A stretch of DNA of 64,000 bases from positions 1,240,001 through 1,304,000 of the forward strand of contig NZ_JAQSLN010000003.1 of NCBI RefSeq assembly GCF_028649655.1, written 5' to 3'. This DNA comes from Halobacteriovorax sp. GB3 (lineage in GTDB: Bacteria; Bdellovibrionota; Bacteriovoracia; Bacteriovoracales; Bacteriovoracaceae). Made by a program: the position numbers and the translations under genes. Shown piece by piece: positions 19,814 to 49,318 of the stretch. Numbering within the stretch: the stretch's first letter is position 1; each line of letters starts with the position of its first letter. The notes below the pieces were generated by a model, which was not told the origin of the DNA, ran no database searches, and saw only the letters and a program-made list of their open reading frames with translations.

Positions 19814-20093
19814 AGTAAGTCTCCCTAATCTGTTTGTGTTTTGATGGGGAGAAATTAGTTTTTCAGACATCGTTATTCAATTAAATACCTCTACAAAAAG
19901 AATCTATTTCCCCAGCTTTCAAAGCAGTTTTTTTTGGCGAAACCTAACTAGCGAATTAAGCACAATGCGTTTTCGCCGTTTTTTGTAAATGGCGAACTCT
20001 TCAAAGAGATTTGAAGATGTTTTTTTTACACTTCACCTCATTAACAAGAACTATTTATGTATAATCGCCTCTCTTTTAGAAGAGGAATCCCCT

Positions 20094-21710
20094 ATGAAAC
20101 TCACTTTTTTATTATCTGCTATTCTTTCTCTACCATCACTTGCCTTTATTGATTTAAAAGTACCTTCAATGGAAGAAGATTTCTTTCAAATGAAATCACT
20201 TCCACTAAAAACAGAATTTAAAATAATCGAAGTTGATGGTATTCCAACTTATCGAATTGAATACATCACTCTTTCTTATCAACCACAAACGATTCAAAAA
20301 TCGATGATAAGACTTGTTGATGAAGTGACTCTTGAAAAAGAAACTTACATTCAAGAAGGTAAAGTTAAAACACTCTTAGAGAAATACAATTACGACAAAG
20401 AGAGTGAGCAATTAACTCATATCGACTCATACAACGATTCAAATCAAGTCATCACAAGAAAGATGAACTCTCCTTTAGACCTTATGCCGATTGAAATTCA
20501 CTATAGCTACGAAAGTAAGCGCGAAAAGAAGGCCTTTGCTTTTGATGTCTTTGTAAGAGATACAAATAAATTGCTCTATCATTATGATCAAAATAAAGTC
20601 TTTGATTTAAAGACCGCCTACCCTCAATCATCACAATCTGAACTTGATAAGAAGCTTAAAAATTTACGAAACTCTAAACGCCTCAAAGTAGCATTAATAG
20701 ACTCGGGACTCGATCATCATCACCCGGCCTTAGCAGAAAAATTGGCGATTAATTTCAATGATCCAATCGATGGGATAGATAATGATCAAAACGGTTTTGT
20801 CGACGATTACATTGGACTTCAGGCCTTAAGTGGTGTGGGTTTTCCTCTGGAGTCGATTAGACCAGATCGAGAGATCTACCCTCTTTCTCATGGAACTCAT
20901 GTCGGTCACATCATGGTATCAGGGGTTTCAAATGTAGCACTCTTTCCTTTTGTAGGAGAATACGGAGAAGCTTACTTTCTAAAGCAAATCTCTGATAAAA
21001 TCACAGACGAGAAAATTGACTTCGTCAATATGAGCTTTAGTTTTCCTCATTGGTCGCTCCAAGACATTCCTAAAAAAACATTCATGAATCTAAAATTTAT
21101 GATTCTAAAAAATAAAGAGACACTCTTTTTTGCAGCAGCAGGAAATGACTATCAAAGAGTTATTCACTATGGTCGAAATGGTGTGTACCCAGCATCTTTT
21201 CCAATGGAAAATATACTCACAGTTGGAGCTCTCAATACTGCAACCTTTTCCAAAGATGACGCTCATACTTATAACGTTGCCGACTATTCAAATATTTCAA
21301 ATCTTGTCGTCGATATTTTTGCACCAGGAACAGATATTTTGGCTGCATCTCTTGGCGGTGGATTAATCAAACATTCCGGTACATCGATGGCAACACCTTG
21401 GATGGTAAATCAATCCATAAAGTTAAAGAAGACCTATCCAGAACTTACGAATCGACAAATTAGAGACCTCTTTCTTTATACGGCTTATATTCCAAACATT
21501 GATGAACCTCTTCCTTGCTCTTCAGGAGGAATGGTTTTTCCTACGAGAGCGCACGCCCTTGCAAAGAGATTTTTAAAGAATAAAACAAAATCGATAAAAG
21601 AACTTGCCCTAGAAATGCGGGCTCAAAAAGAGCTTCTTCTCCAAGGAGAAGAATCAAATGCGAACTATCTTGAAAAGCTTCAAACTCTTTGGAAGATGCG
21701 CCTACTTTAA
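20094..21710 (+). CDS. Secreted subtilisin-like serine protease (S8)
   Basis: 538 residues from the ATG at 20094, which follows AGAGGA and begins a signal peptide (MKLTFLLSAILSLPSLAF); a longer in-frame start at 19989 lacks both. Residues about 20-190 are a pro- or accessory domain. The S8 catalytic domain has Asp in ALIDSGLDHHHP (about 203), His in HGTHVGH (about 267), the oxyanion Asn in AAAGND and Ser in SGTSMATPW (about 428). Secreted proteases of this kind are plentiful in predatory bacteria and could digest prey protein; that use is inference. It is convergent with a small membrane protein gene, overlapping it by four bases. A lone TATAAT at 20060 may belong to its promoter. Confidence 0.92.
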   Translation: MKLTFLLSAILSLPSLAFIDLKVPSMEEDFFQMKSLPLKTEFKIIEVDGIPTYRIEYITLSYQPQTIQKSMIRLVDEVTLEKETYIQEGKVKTLLEKYNYDKESEQLTHIDSYNDSNQVITRKMNSPLDLMPIEIHYSYESKREKKAFAFDVFVRDTNKLLYHYDQNKVFDLKTAYPQSSQSELDKKLKNLRNSKRLKVALIDSGLDHHHPALAEKLAINFNDPIDGIDNDQNGFVDDYIGLQALSGVGFPLESIRPDREIYPLSHGTHVGHIMVSGVSNVALFPFVGEYGEAYFLKQISDKITDEKIDFVNMSFSFPHWSLQDIPKKTFMNLKFMILKNKETLFFAAAGNDYQRVIHYGRNGVYPASFPMENILTVGALNTATFSKDDAHTYNVADYSNISNLVVDIFAPGTDILAASLGGGLIKHSGTSMATPWMVNQSIKLKKTYPELTNRQIRDLFLYTAYIPNIDEPLPCSSGGMVFPTRAHALAKRFLKNKTKSIKELALEMRAQKELLLQGEESNANYLEKLQTLWKMRLL

Positions 21711-40249: not shown

Positions 40250-40456
40250 AATTCCCGTCCTTTTTACTCTGATAATTATTCGCTCCATTAAAGCATAAAC
40301 GATAAATAACGTTAAGACTCTAAGCAGCGATACTATCTCATTTCAACGACTTGGCCCATTAAACTTTTCTTGTTCATGCCCCGATAAGGAGTATTGTGAC
40401 GAATCCTTGTTATTAGATATGCTGCCGCAAAAAATGAAATGAAATTAAGGTCAATG

Positions 40457-41257
40457 ATGAAAACCAACATGATTCTCATCCTCTTTTTTCTGATCACGAC
40501 AAGTGTCCAGGCAAACTACTTTCTATTAAAGAAAGGATTTCTAATCACAGAAAGAGGAACTGTCGTTCCTGCAATATCAAAAATGGAAAAGAAATATAGT
40601 CCAAAGTTTTTTCCAAGAGACTATGAATTGTACTTTGAGAGTGAAAAAAGCTATCTCAATTTTCTAAAAGAAGCTTCTATTGTTAGAGAAAAAAGAGGAA
40701 TTAATTGTCACGAATACATACTCTATAAAGGCGAGATTGTTGTTCACAAACGTTTCAATAGAATGGAACAATGCTTTGAAAAAGAATATGAAAACTACAG
40801 TTGTAATCTCATAGAAGAAAAAAATGAAATAAATGCTAGCTATACGATTTCCTATGAAACAAATCTCATAAGAAATTGCCTCATGCACCTGACTTATCAA
40901 GGTGAAAGAATCAATAATCAGACAGAAATGAAAGATTGCAAAGAAGTGAAAATTTCATTTCGAGACCTCAACTATCCAGACAGAAGAGATAATTCATCGA
41001 TTCAAGATCTCTACTACGTAACGGATAAAGGACTTGTCGCGAAAATTCATAAGCAACCCTTTCTTGAGGACTATTATAAAAGAGATGGTAAATTTTATTT
41101 TGAAACGAAGAAGGCCTACAACCAATTTAGCAGTGACACAAAAGTTTTTTACAAAAGAGAGCAAAAGCTCATTGGCTTTGAATGTATAGAGATCACGAGT
41201 ATAAATGGCTTTGAGAAGAGGCGTTCCGTTAAAAATACTCTTTGTATCAATTTATAA
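40457..41257 (+). CDS. Secreted protein with an internal duplication
   Basis: 266 residues. Signal peptide MKTNMILILFFLITTSVQA; the ATG at 40457 has AAGG six bases upstream (earlier ATGs at 40439 and 40454 are in frame). Two regions resemble one another: RDYELYFESEKSYLNF (residues about 55-71) and RDGKFYFETKKAYNQF (about 213-229), each followed by a charged stretch and a Cys (INCHEY, FECIEI). So the protein probably arose from two copies of one module. Six further Cys suggest disulfides. No family recognised. It is convergent with the paralogue array, six bases away. Confidence 0.65.
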   Translation: MKTNMILILFFLITTSVQANYFLLKKGFLITERGTVVPAISKMEKKYSPKFFPRDYELYFESEKSYLNFLKEASIVREKRGINCHEYILYKGEIVVHKRFNRMEQCFEKEYENYSCNLIEEKNEINASYTISYETNLIRNCLMHLTYQGERINNQTEMKDCKEVKISFRDLNYPDRRDNSSIQDLYYVTDKGLVAKIHKQPFLEDYYKRDGKFYFETKKAYNQFSSDTKVFYKREQKLIGFECIEITSINGFEKRRSVKNTLCINL

Positions 41258-41263
41258 AAAAAC

Positions 41264-42520
41264 TTAGAACCAAGAGAAGTTCTTCATCAAACTTCTAATT
41301 TTCTTTCTCATTGGAATTAAAATATGTTTTTTGTATCCACTATATTGTCGAGAATAAATTTTTGAAACCCGATACTGATCATATTCGCTCCACCAACGTA
41401 TTTCACCGCAATTTAATTCAACATTCTCCGAGATATTCTTAATCATGTTCCCAACATCTAACCCATAAAAAACCGATTCTAAATGAGATAAGATAACTCG
41501 ACTTAATTCAGGCTTTAATCCAAGTTGACGGCAAGAAGACCTTGCAGCGATCATATTCATAAGAGAAAGAACACTTCCTCTAACTTCTTCACTTTTAATG
41601 CGTTCTTTAAGATGAGGAACCGTTTCAAAGACTTGATTTCTCTTTTCTTTGGAAGCAACACTTGAAGAATAAATAACAATCGCATCTAAAAAGGATGACT
41701 CTGATTTAAAAGAGAAACTTCCATCCACTTCTGCGTCACGATAGAGATTCGTAAAGATCTCGATAATGACTTGACTGAAAAAAGGATGAAAATTCTCAAT
41801 CATACTCGCACCATAAGTATAGCGAATCCCACCAGAAGAGAGAAAATCGAGAACAGTTTGCTTATAAGTATTGATAAGATGATCGATCTTCTCTCGCCCC
41901 TCTTTTTTCGTATGAAGCTTTGAAGATAGTAAGTAAGCATTTTTTAAATCATCATAGTTGTTATGCTTATCTGATAAAGAAAGAACTCTATCCCACACCT
42001 CTTTAGCAAGGTTATTTAAATCTAAAAGAGAATCCCAATCATTGCTCTCTAATAGAAACTCATAGGACAGGTGAATACTCTCTCTAGTTGGAAACCCATA
42101 ATTAAGTCTAATTGTCCTTGGCATATTTTGAATCGGTTTAACCCCGAGGGCCAAGTCGGGATAACTTCCAAACTCATCAACCAAAAGCTCTTTACCTAGA
42201 TGATAAAAGACAAGTTTCTCACTCAAATCAAGACGAGATTTTCCATAGTCCTGATCCTTAGAAGAAACGCCATAACGAGAATCATAGAGATAACTTTTTC
42301 TAAACTTTGGCGGGAATCCCCTCTCACACATGATCTTCTCGAGACTATTACTTTTAAAAAAATGCTCTAACTTAAAATCTCCGACCTGCTGATATTGTCC
42401 ATCACAACTATCGTTTTGATAGATACTAACTTTCTCAAACCCATAAACAGAGAATGAGAAAAAGGCCTGAAGCGCGCAGAGAAGAGAGAGATAGAATAGT
42501 ACTTTTATCTTTAAGTTCAA
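41264..42520 (-). CDS. Paralogue array member E, secreted protein of an unrecognised family
   Basis: Last gene of the five-gene array. 418 residues if the TTG at 42520 is used; it follows AGGG by seven bases, lies just after the stop of member D, and starts a signal peptide (NLKIKVLFYLSLLCALQAFF). The longer open frame to 42664 overlaps member D heavily. Shared family plan: first Cys, then SLE...CER.FP, YGV.S..Q.Y, LSYEFLLESNDWDSLLDLN, KLHTKKEGREKIDHLI, a core DFLSSGGIRYTYGAS...FHPFF.QVIIEIF, then C-RQLGLKPELSR and LNCGE. Four Cys are conserved. Mostly helical. No known catalytic motif. Confidence 0.75.
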   Translation of the reverse strand: MNLKIKVLFYLSLLCALQAFFSFSVYGFEKVSIYQNDSCDGQYQQVGDFKLEHFFKSNSLEKIMCERGFPPKFRKSYLYDSRYGVSSKDQDYGKSRLDLSEKLVFYHLGKELLVDEFGSYPDLALGVKPIQNMPRTIRLNYGFPTRESIHLSYEFLLESNDWDSLLDLNNLAKEVWDRVLSLSDKHNNYDDLKNAYLLSSKLHTKKEGREKIDHLINTYKQTVLDFLSSGGIRYTYGASMIENFHPFFSQVIIEIFTNLYRDAEVDGSFSFKSESSFLDAIVIYSSSVASKEKRNQVFETVPHLKERIKSEEVRGSVLSLMNMIAARSSCRQLGLKPELSRVILSHLESVFYGLDVGNMIKNISENVELNCGEIRWWSEYDQYRVSKIYSRQYSGYKKHILIPMRKKIRSLMKNFSWF

Positions 42521-42521
42521 A

Positions 42522-43736
42522 TCAATACCCTGCCCAATCAGTCTTTTTAAATAGTTTAACCGCCTTTTTTCTAAAAGGGATGAGAATATCTTTTTCAAAA
42601 TATTTATAAGCAGCATTATAAAGAATCGAATGAACCTTTCTGCCCATAAGCTCTGTCTTTCCACAATTGAGACTTAGATTCCCTTGTGTATTTTTGAAGA
42701 TATTCGAAATTTCAGTACTGTATAAATAGTTATTCATACTAGAAATGATTGAACGACTTAATTCGGGCTTTAATCCTAACTGAAAGCAATTCTTATTCGC
42801 TACCGCCATATTAATCAATGAGAGTATACCTGCTTGATACTCAAAGTGTTGATAGGCATTAGATGATATTTGAAAAATTTCTCTTACCTTCTTATCGTAT
42901 TTTTCATTAACAAAAAGCGAGGCATAAAGAATTTTCGAATAGCTATAAAGATCAGCATCCTTTATTCGTCTCTTATCAATAAGGGAGCTGATGAATGATT
43001 CAGAGTAAAATTCAATGATCGTCTGCATAAAGAAAGGGTGAAACTCACTAATAAGTGAAGCACCATATGTATAGCGAACTCCACTCGAGCTTAAAAAGTC
43101 CAATACACTTTTTTGGTAGTTAAAAATAAGTTCGTCAATTTCTTTTCTTCCACTTCTTTTTGAATGCAACTTTTTGTCGAAAATATAGGCATTCTTTAAT
43201 GAATCATAATCATGATGTAAATCAGACATCGAAAGAACGGTTTTCCAAACATTAGCAGCTTGTCTATTTAATTCATAAATACCGTCCCAATCATTACTTT
43301 CTAACAAAAAGTCATAGGACAAGTTAATATCTTTATAATAATCAAATCCATATTGTTGCCCTAAAAAATCTTCTGAAAATACAGGATAATGTCCATCTTT
43401 TGAAATATGAACGTTAACACGCTTAGAAAGGTTTACATGTGAAAGAGAAAAAGACTCAGAATTTCTTATAACTGGTGCGTCATAATTTTGAACATTAGAA
43501 GGCACTCCATACTTATTTGATTGTATCGACTTTCTATTTTTATGATCCGGAAACATTCTTTCACATAAACGGTATTCAAGACTATTTTCATCTATCGGAT
43601 TTACGATCTCTACGGTAGTGGCCAGAGATACTTTAATTCCAGGGCAGTATCCTTGCTCATTAACTTCAAAGTTAATTGCAAACGCCTTCACAGAAGACAA
43701 AAATAATAAAGAGAGTGCAAAATTTATCTTACCCAT
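42522..43736 (-). CDS. Paralogue array member D, secreted protein of an unrecognised family
   Basis: 404 residues, signal peptide MGKINFALSLLFLSSVKAFA. Start follows GGGAGA and overlaps member C by 13 bases. It has the full family plan: GYCPG, SLEYRLCERMFP, KYGVPSNVQNYD, SKDGHYP, LSYDFLLESNDWDGIYELN, KKLHSKRSGRKEIDELI, DFLSSSGVRYTYGASLI, FHPFFMQTIIEFY, NCFQLGLKPELSRS and LNCGK. The block from NDWD to HPFF is the best conserved and probably the functional core. The Lys/Arg-rich KLHSKR segment followed by an aromatic core could bind a polyanion or glycan; this is a guess. Confidence 0.8.
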   Translation of the reverse strand: MGKINFALSLLFLSSVKAFAINFEVNEQGYCPGIKVSLATTVEIVNPIDENSLEYRLCERMFPDHKNRKSIQSNKYGVPSNVQNYDAPVIRNSESFSLSHVNLSKRVNVHISKDGHYPVFSEDFLGQQYGFDYYKDINLSYDFLLESNDWDGIYELNRQAANVWKTVLSMSDLHHDYDSLKNAYIFDKKLHSKRSGRKEIDELIFNYQKSVLDFLSSSGVRYTYGASLISEFHPFFMQTIIEFYSESFISSLIDKRRIKDADLYSYSKILYASLFVNEKYDKKVREIFQISSNAYQHFEYQAGILSLINMAVANKNCFQLGLKPELSRSIISSMNNYLYSTEISNIFKNTQGNLSLNCGKTELMGRKVHSILYNAAYKYFEKDILIPFRKKAVKLFKKTDWAGY

Positions 43737-44965
43737 TTATAATTCATCTCCCAATCCACAGAATCCAAAAAGCGTTTTCCATTTTCCCTAAAAGGTTTAA
43801 CGATGCTTTTTCCAAATTGCGGATAATAAATATTATAAATTCTTGATTGTAATTGAATGTCTGGAAAAAATAGACTATCTACATTTCCACAACTCTGTCT
43901 TATATCAGATTTTAGATACATCATGATTTGCTTTGAAACCTGTCTATACTTATCAGTATGAATTCCTAGTAAGACTGAACGAGAAATTTCCGGTTTGAGG
44001 CCAAGTTGTAAGCATTCTGTTTCAGTTGCGGCCATACTCAATATAGAAATGATTGCTCCACGATGTTCGTATTTAGAAAGTAGCTCTTCAAAATTTTCAA
44101 TCCAGTGAGAATAAGCAATCATCATATTAGGATTTGCAATGAGAGTTGCATTCAAAAGCTGATAATCAAGTCTAAAATTGAACTCTGAAAATCTATCTCT
44201 ATCAACGAAATCAATTGCAAAGAGTTCAGAAGCAAACTCAATCACAATTTGTAAAAAGAAAGGGTGAAAATGATCAATAAGAGAAACACCATACGTATAA
44301 CGCCCACCACTTGATGAAAGAAAATCAAATACATTTTTCTGATATGCTTTGATCATATGATCTATCTCTTTTCTGCCTTTTCTTTTTGAATGGAGTTTTT
44401 TTCCAAAAACATAAGCATTTTTCAAAGAGTCATAGTCTTGGTGAATATCAGATTTCTCTAAAATCAAATCCCATATTTTTGAAGCCTGAATATTTAAATC
44501 CAATAGGCCTTGCCAATCCTGTGATTCGATTAAATAGTCATAAGATAGTGCAATTTCATTAGGCCAATCCGTATCAAAACCATATTCCTCTTCAAAAAAC
44601 TTAGGATATTTTGGATATTCCCCATCACTCGAAACATTGACAAGAATAGGAGTTGTAGTAAATTCCATGGACGCACGCAGAACTTTAAAATGATCGATCT
44701 CTTTTATTTTAGGTGCACGATAATTTTGAGCTCGAGATGGAACTCCATAATCACGAGATGCGAGAGCTTTTTTATCATTCAAATCAGGAAATAGTCTCTC
44801 ACAGAACTTGGCTTCAAGAGAGTTTCTAAAAAAAATGTTTTTATTCGCTTCATTGAAACGCTTATCTTCGCATGTATTATTCTTATCAATCCGATAATTC
44901 GAGGCACTACTTTTTAATGAGATAAGTGAGCAAGAAAAAATGATGAGAATCAAAGAGGTCTTCAT
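43724..44965 (-). CDS. Paralogue array member C, secreted protein of an unrecognised family
   Basis: 413 residues, signal peptide MKTSLILIIFSCSLISLKSSA. The ATG at 44965 follows a strong AAGGAGG and overlaps the stop of member B (ATGA). Family features: NTCEDK, SLEAKFCERLFPD, YGVPSRAQNYR, SSDGEYPKYP, LSYDYLIESQDWQGLLDLN, KKLHSKRKGRKEIDHMI, DFLSSSGGRYTYGVSLI, FHPFFLQIVIEF, CLQLGLKPEISRS and SCGN. The last Cys is shifted slightly (QSCG). All four family cysteines are present. Confidence 0.8.
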   Translation of the reverse strand: MKTSLILIIFSCSLISLKSSASNYRIDKNNTCEDKRFNEANKNIFFRNSLEAKFCERLFPDLNDKKALASRDYGVPSRAQNYRAPKIKEIDHFKVLRASMEFTTTPILVNVSSDGEYPKYPKFFEEEYGFDTDWPNEIALSYDYLIESQDWQGLLDLNIQASKIWDLILEKSDIHQDYDSLKNAYVFGKKLHSKRKGRKEIDHMIKAYQKNVFDFLSSSGGRYTYGVSLIDHFHPFFLQIVIEFASELFAIDFVDRDRFSEFNFRLDYQLLNATLIANPNMMIAYSHWIENFEELLSKYEHRGAIISILSMAATETECLQLGLKPEISRSVLLGIHTDKYRQVSKQIMMYLKSDIRQSCGNVDSLFFPDIQLQSRIYNIYYPQFGKSIVKPFRENGKRFLDSVDWEMNYKWVR

Positions 44966-45999
44966 AGCTGAACCTCCTTCCAATCAATTTGTCTCAAATC
45001 CTTTTCTGCTCTCTTTCTAACAAGCTTCAGATAAGATTTATTAAAACTTCCAATAGCGCTATTATAAAAGTTTGTCGGACTTAGAAAGCAATTATAAATG
45101 AGATTTTGCTGAATATTTGTAAAAATATGATTTACACTTAGTTCATAGATAACAGGTTTAAAATGAATTAAAGAATTAAGACTAACCTCAGGAAGGAGAC
45201 CAATTTGATCACAATTTTTATTCGAGGCCACCATCGCAATCAATGAAACGAGGCTCCCTTTAAACTCTCTTTTTCGATACAGGCTTTCGTCTATATTTTC
45301 AATTCTTAAAATATTTCCAATGAGTTCTTCATCACCCAAGATTGATCCATAGAGAATCAGAGAATCTTTTTGAAGTTGTTCAGCATCAAATCTCCTTCTA
45401 TCAATACCTGCATATAAGAAAGACTTAGAAAATATTTCGACCAGAACTTGAACAAAGAAGGGATGAAATTGATCAACAAGTGAAGCACCATAAGTATAAT
45501 GAACACTACCAGAAGAGAGATAGTCATAGACTTTCTTTTTAAAGTTTATAATCTCTTTTTCCAATTCCTTTCTGATCTTTCTCTTAGAATGAAGTTTATT
45601 CCCTTTTAGATAAGCACGATTAAGCTCTTCATAGCTTTTGTGTAGATTAGTTGTCTTTAGTAACTTCTTCCATAGTCTATGTGAATCATTATTGAGCTCT
45701 ACAAGAGAATCCCAATCATTACTCTCTAATAAGTACTCGTATGAAAGATGAATATCGTCAATTCCATCAAGGCCATAAGAAATGTCTCTCCCATAGACAT
45801 ATCGATCTCCACGATCAAAGCTTGGATAGCTTCCTTCAAGAGATACTTGTAATTTCTTTTTAAAATTAAAAAGAGCGGCCGCATAATGGTGAAAAAGAAG
45901 TTCAGTCTTATCAGTAAGCTTCGTTTCACTATATGAAGCCGCGGCCAAGAGACTTGGCGAGCAGAAAGTAAAAAATAGAATTAAACAAAGCTTTTTCAT
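44962..45999 (-). CDS. Paralogue array member B, short form, secreted
   Basis: 345 residues, signal peptide MKKLCLILFFTFCSPSLLAAA. The ATG at 45999 follows AGG inside the 153-bp leader repeat; the frame stays open through the leader, but that is untranslated sequence by my reading. It lacks the N-terminal region with the CER.FP and YGVPS motifs and so misses both N-terminal cysteines, but keeps the core (LSYEYLLESNDWDSLVELN, NKLHSKRKIRKELEKEI, DYLSSGSVHYTYGASLV, FHPFFVQVLVEIF) and both C-terminal cysteines (NCDQIGLLPEVS, YNCFL). It has its own sigma-54-like promoter. Confidence 0.8.
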   Translation of the reverse strand: MKKLCLILFFTFCSPSLLAAASYSETKLTDKTELLFHHYAAALFNFKKKLQVSLEGSYPSFDRGDRYVYGRDISYGLDGIDDIHLSYEYLLESNDWDSLVELNNDSHRLWKKLLKTTNLHKSYEELNRAYLKGNKLHSKRKIRKELEKEIINFKKKVYDYLSSGSVHYTYGASLVDQFHPFFVQVLVEIFSKSFLYAGIDRRRFDAEQLQKDSLILYGSILGDEELIGNILRIENIDESLYRKREFKGSLVSLIAMVASNKNCDQIGLLPEVSLNSLIHFKPVIYELSVNHIFTNIQQNLIYNCFLSPTNFYNSAIGSFNKSYLKLVRKRAEKDLRQIDWKEVQL

Positions 46000-46142
46000 T
46001 AAACAACCTGTTACAAGGTGATACATCTGTCCATTTTTTACACAGAAAACCTTTAAATTTGGATACTTAATCAAGTATTTCGTTATTATGTTGCATGTAT
46101 AGTGCCAAAGGTTTTCTCTTTGAGCTCGAACATAAACAAACA
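45990..46142 (-). repeat. 153-bp leader repeat, copy 1 (before member B)
   Basis: Matches the copy at 47448-47600 at 151 of 153 positions with no gap, by direct reading. It covers the first codons (MKK), the ribosome site, the 5' leader and the promoter region. The coding sequences on each side are far more diverged. Inside lie a 16-base hairpin (ATACTTGATTAAGTAT, 46063-46078) and an 11-base inverted repeat (AGAAAACCTTT, arms 46044-46054 and 46107-46117). Confidence 0.9.
46092..46108 (-). promoter_or_regulatory. Sigma-54-type (-24/-12) promoter, copy 1
   Basis: Minus strand reads TTGGCACTATACATGCA. GG and GC are 12 bases apart, as sigma-54 requires, and TGGCAC and TGCA match the -24 and -12 elements. 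Transcription would start near 46081, giving a leader of about 80 bases that opens with the small hairpin. One arm of the 11-base inverted repeat overlaps the -24 element. Confidence 0.6.
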
Positions 46143-46164
46143 AGAATGGACCAATTGAACTTCT

Positions 46165-47457
46165 TTAGAATTCGTTACGTTTTCTAAAGAGCTTGAGCAT
46201 ATCTTTATTGAGACCTTTATATTCTGAATGATAGAGATTCGAATAATAAATTCCATACTCTTCATCCTTTCCAATTCCACAGTTATGAGCAATATTTCCG
46301 CTAATATTAGTGAAGATCTTACTCACTGTCTGGTGATAATAGATAGGATCAAAACCTAAAAACAAAGTACGACTGATTTCCGGTTTGAGACCAAGTTGAA
46401 AACAATCTTTTGTTGCCGTCATAGAAAGTAATGAAAGAAGACTCCCTTTTACTTCATTATTAGCAAAGTAAGTATTCCACTGAGTGTCATCGTTCGAAAC
46501 TAAACGAATCACTTCCTGGTCACCAAAAGCTGCAACAAAGAGCGCCAATGACTCTTTTTCATAGTCATGTCCTTTCTTTCTTTTACCATCGACTTTCGCA
46601 TAATTGAAAGAACTAAAAAACATTTCTAAAAGGACTTGAGTAAAGAATGGGTGGAATGAATTAAGCATCGAAACACCATAGGTATAGCGAATACTTCCAG
46701 AAGAGAGAAAATCGTAAACTTGTCTTTTGTAAGCTTTAATCATCTTATTTATCGATCTTCTTTCCAACCAGTTTGAGTGTAACTTCTCCCCTTGAATATA
46801 AGCATTATTCAGTTCATCATAAGAACTATGAAGATTTGATTTCTCAAGAATAGATCTCCACATTACTGAAGCTTCCTTATTCAGCTCCAGTATCATTTCC
46901 CAATCGTTACTTGTTCTCACGTAATCCAAGCTTAGATCAATTACTGTCAAAGAATTAAAACCATATTCTATATCGATTTTCATATGACGATTAATCGACT
47001 TTTCATTTTTTATAACTTCTGGGTGTTTTCCATTTTTTGAAACAAGAATTTTTCCAGGTGTACTTTTGTGAAAGATAGAATTTCCTGAAGAACTAGGAAT
47101 TCCAAGGTAGCTTTGTACAGAAAGCTTCTCATAATCAAAACGGCTCTTATAATGTGATACAATAGCTTCTTCAAAATAATCAATTTTAAAGTCATCGTAA
47201 TTTTGAAAAGCTGATGGCACACCAAACCTTTGATCATACAAAGATCTCCTCGTTGCATCGGCAGGAAACATTCTTTCACATAACCGATACTCAAGTGAAC
47301 CTTTTTGAATATTAATAAAAGCACCGCTGTTTTTCACATTAATCTTTTCGCAATGTCCCTCATCGTCTCTAACAAAAGTCGATTGCCCCAGTGACTCTGA
47401 GGCCAATAGGAACAGAGAAAACAAAACGGATAATTGAAGAAAACAATGCTTTTTCAT
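46165..47457 (-). CDS. Paralogue array member A, secreted protein of an unrecognised family
   Basis: First gene of the array, 430 residues, signal peptide MKKHCFLQLSVLFSLFLLASESLG. The ATG at 47457 is the same leader-embedded start as in member B. Family features: GHCEKI, SLEYRLCERMFPADATRRS, FGVPSAFQNYDD, SKNGKHP, LSLDYVRTSNDWEMILELN, EKLHSNWLERRSINKMI (less basic than in its sisters), DFLSSGSIRYTYGVSML, FHPFFTQVLLEMF, DCFQLGLKPEISRT and HNCG. An extra insertion of about 40 residues lies between the YGVPS block and the SKNGKHP block. Confidence 0.8.
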   Translation of the reverse strand: MKKHCFLQLSVLFSLFLLASESLGQSTFVRDDEGHCEKINVKNSGAFINIQKGSLEYRLCERMFPADATRRSLYDQRFGVPSAFQNYDDFKIDYFEEAIVSHYKSRFDYEKLSVQSYLGIPSSSGNSIFHKSTPGKILVSKNGKHPEVIKNEKSINRHMKIDIEYGFNSLTVIDLSLDYVRTSNDWEMILELNKEASVMWRSILEKSNLHSSYDELNNAYIQGEKLHSNWLERRSINKMIKAYKRQVYDFLSSGSIRYTYGVSMLNSFHPFFTQVLLEMFFSSFNYAKVDGKRKKGHDYEKESLALFVAAFGDQEVIRLVSNDDTQWNTYFANNEVKGSLLSLLSMTATKDCFQLGLKPEISRTLFLGFDPIYYHQTVSKIFTNISGNIAHNCGIGKDEEYGIYYSNLYHSEYKGLNKDMLKLFRKRNEF

Positions 47458-47600
47458 TAAACAACCTGTTACAAGGTGATACATCTGCCCATTTTTTAGA
47501 CAGAAAACCTTTAAATTTGGATACTTAATCAAGTATTTCGTTATTATGTTGCATGTATAGTGCCAAAGGTTTTCTCTTTGAGCTCGAACATAAACAAACA
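47448..47600 (-). repeat. 153-bp leader repeat, copy 2 (before member A)
   Basis: Partner of the copy at 45990-46142, offset 1458 bases, with two substitutions. It has the same inverted repeat arms (47502-47512 and 47565-47575), small hairpin, promoter and ribosome site. Sequence identity stops at 47600, upstream of the promoter. Confidence 0.9.
47550..47566 (-). promoter_or_regulatory. Sigma-54-type (-24/-12) promoter, copy 2
   Basis: Identical to copy 1: TTGGCACTATACATGCA on the minus strand, with transcription predicted to start near 47539 and read through the array. No enhancer-binding protein gene lies in the window. Confidence 0.6.
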
Positions 47601-48122: not shown

Positions 48123-48153
48123 AAAAAGCCCCGATTAATTCGGGGCTTTTTTT
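48121..48153. terminator. Bidirectional intrinsic terminator
   Basis: Seven A, GCCCCGA, loop TTAAT, TCGGGGC, seven T. The A run serves as T run on the minus strand, so it ends both the gene at 47682 and the gene at 48152. Confidence 0.93.
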
Positions 48154-49264
48154 ATTCTTCAAATTGTGGCTTATTTTGAGCTTTCGTTTCGTAGGCGATA
48201 TCAGAATCGTCTGAATCATAAGCATCATCGTCCATATTGAAGTCATCTTCATCAGCATCAATATCAAGTTCTTTAAGAATACTGAAAAATGATTTTTCAT
48301 CATCAAGATCACCAAGGATTGATTCGATGTACTTCATTGGATATTTAGCAACAAGCTCTTGGATAAATTGCTGTAACTTACCTTCTTCAAGAATGGCCTG
48401 CTTACGTTTAATTTCTTTCCAATTTTTGATGTAGTGAAAACGACAATAACCCATTGTTGTGGCCGGGTTATCACATGCCTTCTCAATACACTCATCAATA
48501 CTATTAAAGAAGAAATCGATTGTTTTAATCGCATCAAAGATATCTTTAAGCTTATAGTCTTCAGCAAGTCCTACAACTTCCTCAGCTACAACTTCTTTAA
48601 GGTCCTTAATCAGCTCATTTTTCTTTTTCTTAGTCATATCGAGAACAGGCTCTTGCGCCTCCTCTTCTTCAAGACCTAGATCAAGTTCAAGCTTTTCTTC
48701 TTTTGCTTTTTTCTTAGATTTTTTTTCTTCAACAACTTCAGCAACTTCTTCTTCAACCTCTTCAAGCTCTTCAACTTCTACTTTTGCAGATGCTTTCTTA
48801 GCTGTCGCTTTAGTCGTTTTCTTTTTAGCCGTTGTTTTTTTCTTTTCAGTCGCCTTCTTTACAGGAGTTGCTTTTTTAGCAACTTTCTTAGCGGCAACCT
48901 TCTTAGCAGTTTTTTTCTTTGCAGCAGGAGCTGCTTTTTTAACAGTCTTCTTTTTTGACGTGGCTTTTTTTGCAGTCGCCTTTTTAGATGCTGTTGTTTT
49001 CTTAGCAACTTTCTTTGCAACTTTTTTAGCTGTCTTCTTTTTAGTTGCTACTTTTTTCGCAGTTTTCTTAGAGGCCGTCGTTGTCTTCTTTTTAGAAGCC
49101 GAAGTTTTCTTAGCAACCTTTTTAGCTGTCTTTTTCTTGGCTGTAGAAGCTTTTTTAGCAACTTTTTTCGTTGTTTTCTTCTTAGCAGTAGAAGTAGCTA
49201 CTTTTTTCTTAGCAGTTTTCTTTGCTGTCTTCTTTTTAGAAGTTGCAGTTTTCTTTTTGGCCAT
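48152..49264 (-). CDS. Histone H1-like lysine-rich protein with a C-terminal Cys/His cluster
   Basis: 370 residues in two parts. Residues 1-165 are almost only Lys, Ala, Thr and Ser in AKKKTAKK-type repeats, as in the histone H1 tail and the H1-like proteins of several bacteria, which bind and compact DNA. After an acidic linker (EVEELEEVEEEVAEVVEE), residues about 215-370 form a folded helical domain with CIEKACDNPATTMGYCRFH, a likely zinc site (Cys-x4-Cys-x8-Cys-x2-His). The tail is very acidic (DADEDDFNMDDDAYDSDDSD). The ATG at 49264 follows GGAGA. Role in nucleoid compaction is inference. Confidence 0.8.
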   Translation of the reverse strand: MAKKKTATSKKKTAKKTAKKKVATSTAKKKTTKKVAKKASTAKKKTAKKVAKKTSASKKKTTTASKKTAKKVATKKKTAKKVAKKVAKKTTASKKATAKKATSKKKTVKKAAPAAKKKTAKKVAAKKVAKKATPVKKATEKKKTTAKKKTTKATAKKASAKVEVEELEEVEEEVAEVVEEKKSKKKAKEEKLELDLGLEEEEAQEPVLDMTKKKKNELIKDLKEVVAEEVVGLAEDYKLKDIFDAIKTIDFFFNSIDECIEKACDNPATTMGYCRFHYIKNWKEIKRKQAILEEGKLQQFIQELVAKYPMKYIESILGDLDDEKSFFSILKELDIDADEDDFNMDDDAYDSDDSDIAYETKAQNKPQFEE

Positions 49265-49318
49265 ATTAACTTTCTCCAAGATCTTTTTTACTAAGCCCAT
49301 GAGATTTATTTACTTATA

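Follow-up and report, generated by a model that had tools for sequence, protein, structure and literature searches.

Halobacteriovorax sp. GB3 carries a tandem array of five genes for putatively exported proteins of an undescribed family, here called F, within the 64,000-nucleotide stretch of its DNA that was analysed (the window). From comparisons of sequence and gene order, we conclude that F is a component of a sparse, accessory seven-gene exported system of the Bdellovibrionota, and that the array goes back to the F gene of the corresponding gene cluster, of which it is not a complete copy. By the same evidence, F has left the cluster in the genus of the window and was amplified there.

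The array occupies positions 41264-47457 of the window, and all five genes lie head to tail, as the preliminary description had stated, on the minus strand. They are gA (46165-47457, 430 aa; recognised from its open reading frame, alignment and N-terminal hydrophobic segment, and preceded by a 153-bp leader), gB (44962-45999, 345 aa), gC (43724-44965, 413 aa), gD (42522-43736, 404 aa; the source of our structure model) and gE (41264-42520, 418 aa). A gap of 165 nt separates gA from gB, the start of gC overlaps the stop of gB by 4 nt, gD overlaps gC by 13 nt, and gE begins with a TTG codon 1 nt past the gD stop. Touching or overlapping gene ends had therefore been described correctly, but not their count: five genes form four junctions, and three of these touch or overlap. 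The reading frames of all five genes are intact. Convergent with the array, a plus-strand gene at 40439-41257 ends 6 bp from gE and encodes a 272-aa exported protein with no family match; its counterpart was not seen at the corresponding locus of the congeneric Bacteriovorax sp. BSW11_IV. Also adjoining the array is a minus-strand gene (48152-49300) for a lysine/alanine-rich repetitive protein of histone-like make-up, which is kept at the BSW11_IV locus with 70% identity.

Every pair of array proteins is homologous, with 32-41% identity in the aligned columns and BLASTP E values of about 1e-55 to 1e-99. All five start with a hydrophobic stretch of the signal-peptide type, which exceeds any later segment in strength; this bears out the signal peptides assigned before and points to export. 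The motifs NDWD, KLHSKR, YTYG, FHPFF and QLGLKPE are likewise present, with variants. The four ordered cysteines of the preliminary description hold for four of the five proteins; gB is without the N-terminal block that carries the first two and has the second pair only, and it reads NCF where the others have NCG. We define the F family by the core SxDW...LN...W - (T)YG..S...[FH]HP[FL]F.Q..E - C...GL.PE - CG, which was found in the five window proteins, a sixth copy from the same genome, the eight proteins of BSW11_IV and those of G044, G051 and G052. The F proteins of G265, G187 and G269 are divergent but significant matches, and the family retains core residues, cysteines and ordered motifs across great distances. 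Cysteine loss is pairwise: C31 and C58 (gD numbering) are missing in gB, L006 and L018, and all four core cysteines are missing in the F protein of G349. This joint loss of two cysteines at a time in several divergent members suggests disulfides C31-C58 and C317-C358, a pattern that agrees with export.

Searches of Pfam, NCBIfam, PHROGs, PADLOC and the PDB sequences returned no match to F above threshold, the best being at chance level, and F was rightly called an unrecognised family. Relatives were found neither in phages, plasmids and viral contigs nor by tblastn against our genome contig collection. A role of the array in anti-phage defence was rejected, as PADLOC gave no match, and so was homology of F to the cluster proteins A, C or D, for which profile comparison gave no relation. 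The AlphaFold model of gD (pLDDT 88.5, pTM 0.89) is largely helical: a helical core, starting near residue 137, follows a small N-terminal part of mixed structure, and the model lacks repeats and an evident anchor. It had no convincing match in the PDB (best Foldseek E value 0.49) or among viral structure models; the best VIA match, to armadillo/HEAT-like rows, reached Z 4.3 over 131 residues, and these comparisons barely covered residues 1-111. The absence of a PDB match is not proof of a new fold.

F is rare. Of 369 phylum genomes, nine have it (7 of 182 by genus); in the window's family it is present in five genomes and missing in the other 124 of 129. A repeat search of the phylum with all 22 F sequences added no further genome. 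The divergent members had hmmsearch E values of 5e-10 (G265), 1.6e-7 (one of those of G269) and 5e-5 (G187) at a search space of 1000, and the G269 proteins a profile-profile E value of 2.5e-8. Two further matches were rejected: that of G050 (L025, L104), seen in this single genome, as chance, because the gene codes for a sensor histidine kinase with a CEVLGLKSEISR stretch similar to an F motif, and the weak one of G013 (L039) because no F-like gene exists at that place. Copy number varies among relatives (5+1, 3+5, 3, 1). Besides the array, the genome of the window has a sixth, shorter F copy (G000:C3:1310738-1311673); the eight F genes of BSW11_IV include a tandem of three, and G044, G051 and G052, of the same family, have one each. 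The sixth copy lies 106 bp upstream of a subtilase-like gene on the same strand (L061:8450-10135), a second neighbourhood of F with a protease gene, and a 31% identical relative of the subtilase-like gene lies in the window at 19989-21710.

The phylogeny of F agrees with the local amplification proposed in the preliminary description, since the five window genes form one clade (support 100/99). The three tandem genes of BSW11_IV (95/90) and the three of G269 (100/100) do so as well. Because each array is a single clade, tandem amplification of F arose, on this tree, separately in at least three lineages. The sixth gene of the window genome instead groups with one of the scattered copies of BSW11_IV (100/99). 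The sequence diversity that had been remarked upon is also evident between genomes: the three-gene array of BSW11_IV stands at the corresponding chromosomal place, and the F proteins of the two arrays are at best about 30% identical, although the flanking orthologues are 60-91% identical. Identity between the cluster proteins of BSW11_IV and those of the window genome is 29-43%, compared with 56-81% for the genes beside the cluster, and therefore the whole system, and not F alone, changes fast. Synonymous sites within the array are saturated (pS 0.60-0.76), which makes dN/dS uninformative, and positive selection on F cannot be judged for this reason.

The 153-bp leader occurs in two copies in the whole genome, one ending at the start of gA (47448-47600, minus strand) and the other at the start of gB (45990-46142, minus strand), which are identical at 151 of 153 positions. 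The gA and gB proteins downstream share no more than about 41% identity, which marks the copying or conversion of the leader as a recent event. Its presence before gB as well as gA indicates that gB probably has a promoter of its own. Both copies contain the inverted 11-bp arms AGAAAACCTTT/AAAGGTTTTCT (47565-47575 and 47502-47512 in the first copy, 46107-46117 and 46044-46054 in the second) at a spacing of about 50 bp, and these may represent an operator. The arms are absent from the REG-A-B-C-D-E cluster on contig C1. That the leader is a structured RNA is not supported, since Rfam gave no match and folding z-scores were -0.4 and -1.2.

The cluster consists of a STAND-type regulator (REG), four proteins predicted to be exported (A to D), the small and likewise exported E, and F. 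F is physically inside it in seven genomes, and not so in the genome of the window, where REG-A-B-C-D-E lies without F on another contig (G000:C1, about 791.5-800.4 kb). In the window's genus, these six genes stand in front of a gene judged by eye to be lipB-like, and F is found elsewhere. In G044, G051 and G052, a single F gene is divergent from the regulator gene of about 1000 residues, with the small exported E behind F and the genes for exported A to D following the regulator, spread over two contigs in G052. G349, from a different family, has the same-strand run REG-A-B-C-E-F, with F last. A search with gene C added G265, G269 and G187, which represent three further families, and in each of them D is directly followed by F: the ends overlap in G265 and, for the first of three tandem F genes, in G269, and the genes are adjacent in G187. 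The genomes with F and those with a strong gene C (E value at most 2e-13) are the identical nine of 369, and strong matches to E among the 129 genomes of the family are confined to the five with F; as the profiles derive from these very genomes, this co-occurrence is partly ascertained and the agreement not fully independent, and remote homologues may exist below detection. A search of the genome contig collection with D gave four relatives, namely BSW11_IV and three MAGs. A literature search found nothing on this gene set.

Tandem pairs of divergent C-like genes with an A-like gene occur in G104 (L085:8736-11483) and G088 (L086:7565-10319) without a regulator, D or F, another expansion of one cluster component. 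Adjoining F on the opposite strand in G349 is a gene for an exported protein (L058:3589-4572) whose CCxEHDxAYW motif resembles phospholipase A2 by eye. By the same kind of inspection, the gene after F in G265 (L088:4279-6504) resembles a degenerate D without HExxH.

All eight D proteins checked contain HE[MIV][IV]H, a form of HExxH, together with NE[YF]xA, and D is probably a zinc protease acting outside the cytoplasm. The same pair of motifs is found in gluzincins (M1 aminopeptidases, M34-type catalytic cores), in which the NE[YF]xA downstream of HExxH can supply the third ligand. Overlap of these cores with the D model (pLDDT 71.6) is weak: several gluzincins align over the same stretch, residues 97-337, at Z of about 4-6, below 8 and level with unrelated helical matches. 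Unlike gluzincins, the putative metallopeptidase D has no Pfam or NCBIfam peptidase match and has large flanking parts without relatives. The regulator comprises a P-loop NTPase with Walker A, a TPR-like middle and a C-terminal winged helix resembling Trans_reg_C, an arrangement common to STAND-type activators such as MalT/SARP-like proteins; it differs from these in that all its matches are below the Pfam cut-offs and that it is here always tied to the cluster gene set. The regulator of G269 has no recognisable Walker A in the frame read.

We tentatively favour, with a confidence somewhat short of even, the explanation that gene F was amplified locally to give the window array, and that an exported proteolytic system has the F proteins as its diversified partners. 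The STAND-type regulator would sense a signal and turn on the exported genes, D would act as a protease outside the cytoplasm, and the F proteins would be disulfide-bonded helical partners of the D/E machinery, serving as target adaptor, chaperone or inhibitor. Tandem F copies would then widen the range of targets or counterparts handled. A physical partnership of F with D/E is plausible; for the window's genus it is suggested by co-occurrence, as F is not adjacent to D or E there, and a fast-changing F array could equally represent surface or substrate proteins. More doubtful is the wider generalisation that this is a STAND-switched exported proteolytic system of Bdellovibrionota in which a tandem F repertoire sets the specificity, or the self-protection, of one metallopeptidase, a logic comparable to that of other diversified effector or immunity repertoires.

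The position of F next to D (the two genes overlap in G265 and G269 and are neighbours in G187) and the recurrent tandem amplification of F would also suit periplasmic immunity or inhibitor proteins, which guard the producer, or the predator in the prey periplasm, from its own or competitors' D-type proteases. Tandem F arrays would then act like strings of orphan immunity genes. The EsaG/TipC immunity arrays associated with type VII secretion behave likewise and share with F the tandem non-identical paralogues, the locally conserved blocks permitting recombination and the variable copy number (PMC9484751). A near-identical leader before gA and gB, whose proteins are about 41% identical, fits recombination between paralogues, and 106 bp separate the sixth F gene from a subtilase-like gene. 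We nevertheless consider this role unlikely, as F adjoins E and not D in G044, G051, G052 and G349, BSW11_IV combines eight F genes with one D, and no toxic activity of D is known. EsaG and TipC, moreover, are immunity proteins of Firmicutes tied to known toxins (PMC9484751), whereas F resembles no known family in sequence, and the cluster to which it belongs encodes six exported proteins besides a regulator.

Similarly improbable, in our judgement, is that F comprises surface or secreted binding proteins (adhesins, or proteins for recognition of prey or environment) diversified by selection, as the preliminary description had proposed, with D and the others processing or assembling them. The exported pattern, paired cysteines, fast change and amplification of F are in line with such a function, as is the obligate predatory lifestyle of the F-bearing BSW11_IV (PMC4511183). 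However, no known adhesin domain or fold was found in F, the protein is helical without repeats or an evident anchor, and its absence from 124 of the family's 129 genomes argues against general prey recognition. Proteins of the Bdellovibrio predatosome such as Bd0675 are also exported and without known domains, a comparison by category only, and Bd0675 is mostly beta and of 14 kDa (PMC8616854), whereas F is largely helical and has about 400 residues. A neutral, lineage-specific expansion of an exported housekeeping or storage protein, diverging fast under weak constraint, would accord with the saturated synonymous sites, which leave dN/dS uninformative, and with the differing copy numbers (5+1, 3+5, 3, 1). 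We regard it as very unlikely in view of the five intact reading frames, the core residues, cysteines and ordered motifs kept over great distances, the recurrence of amplification in three lineages and the strict co-occurrence of F with the cluster.

Because most relatives lack F (124 of the 129 genomes of the family), we conclude that the F system is accessory and not core to predation. Our results connect the array, until now an orphan, with an exported system of seven genes that is found in several families of predatory bacteria and of their relatives; this cluster offers candidate partners for F, namely a probable zinc protease, a regulator and small exported proteins. Within this system, F is also an example of a single component that was amplified in tandem more than once. 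Should F set the target range of the system or shield its producer, the encounters of these bacteria could be read from the array.
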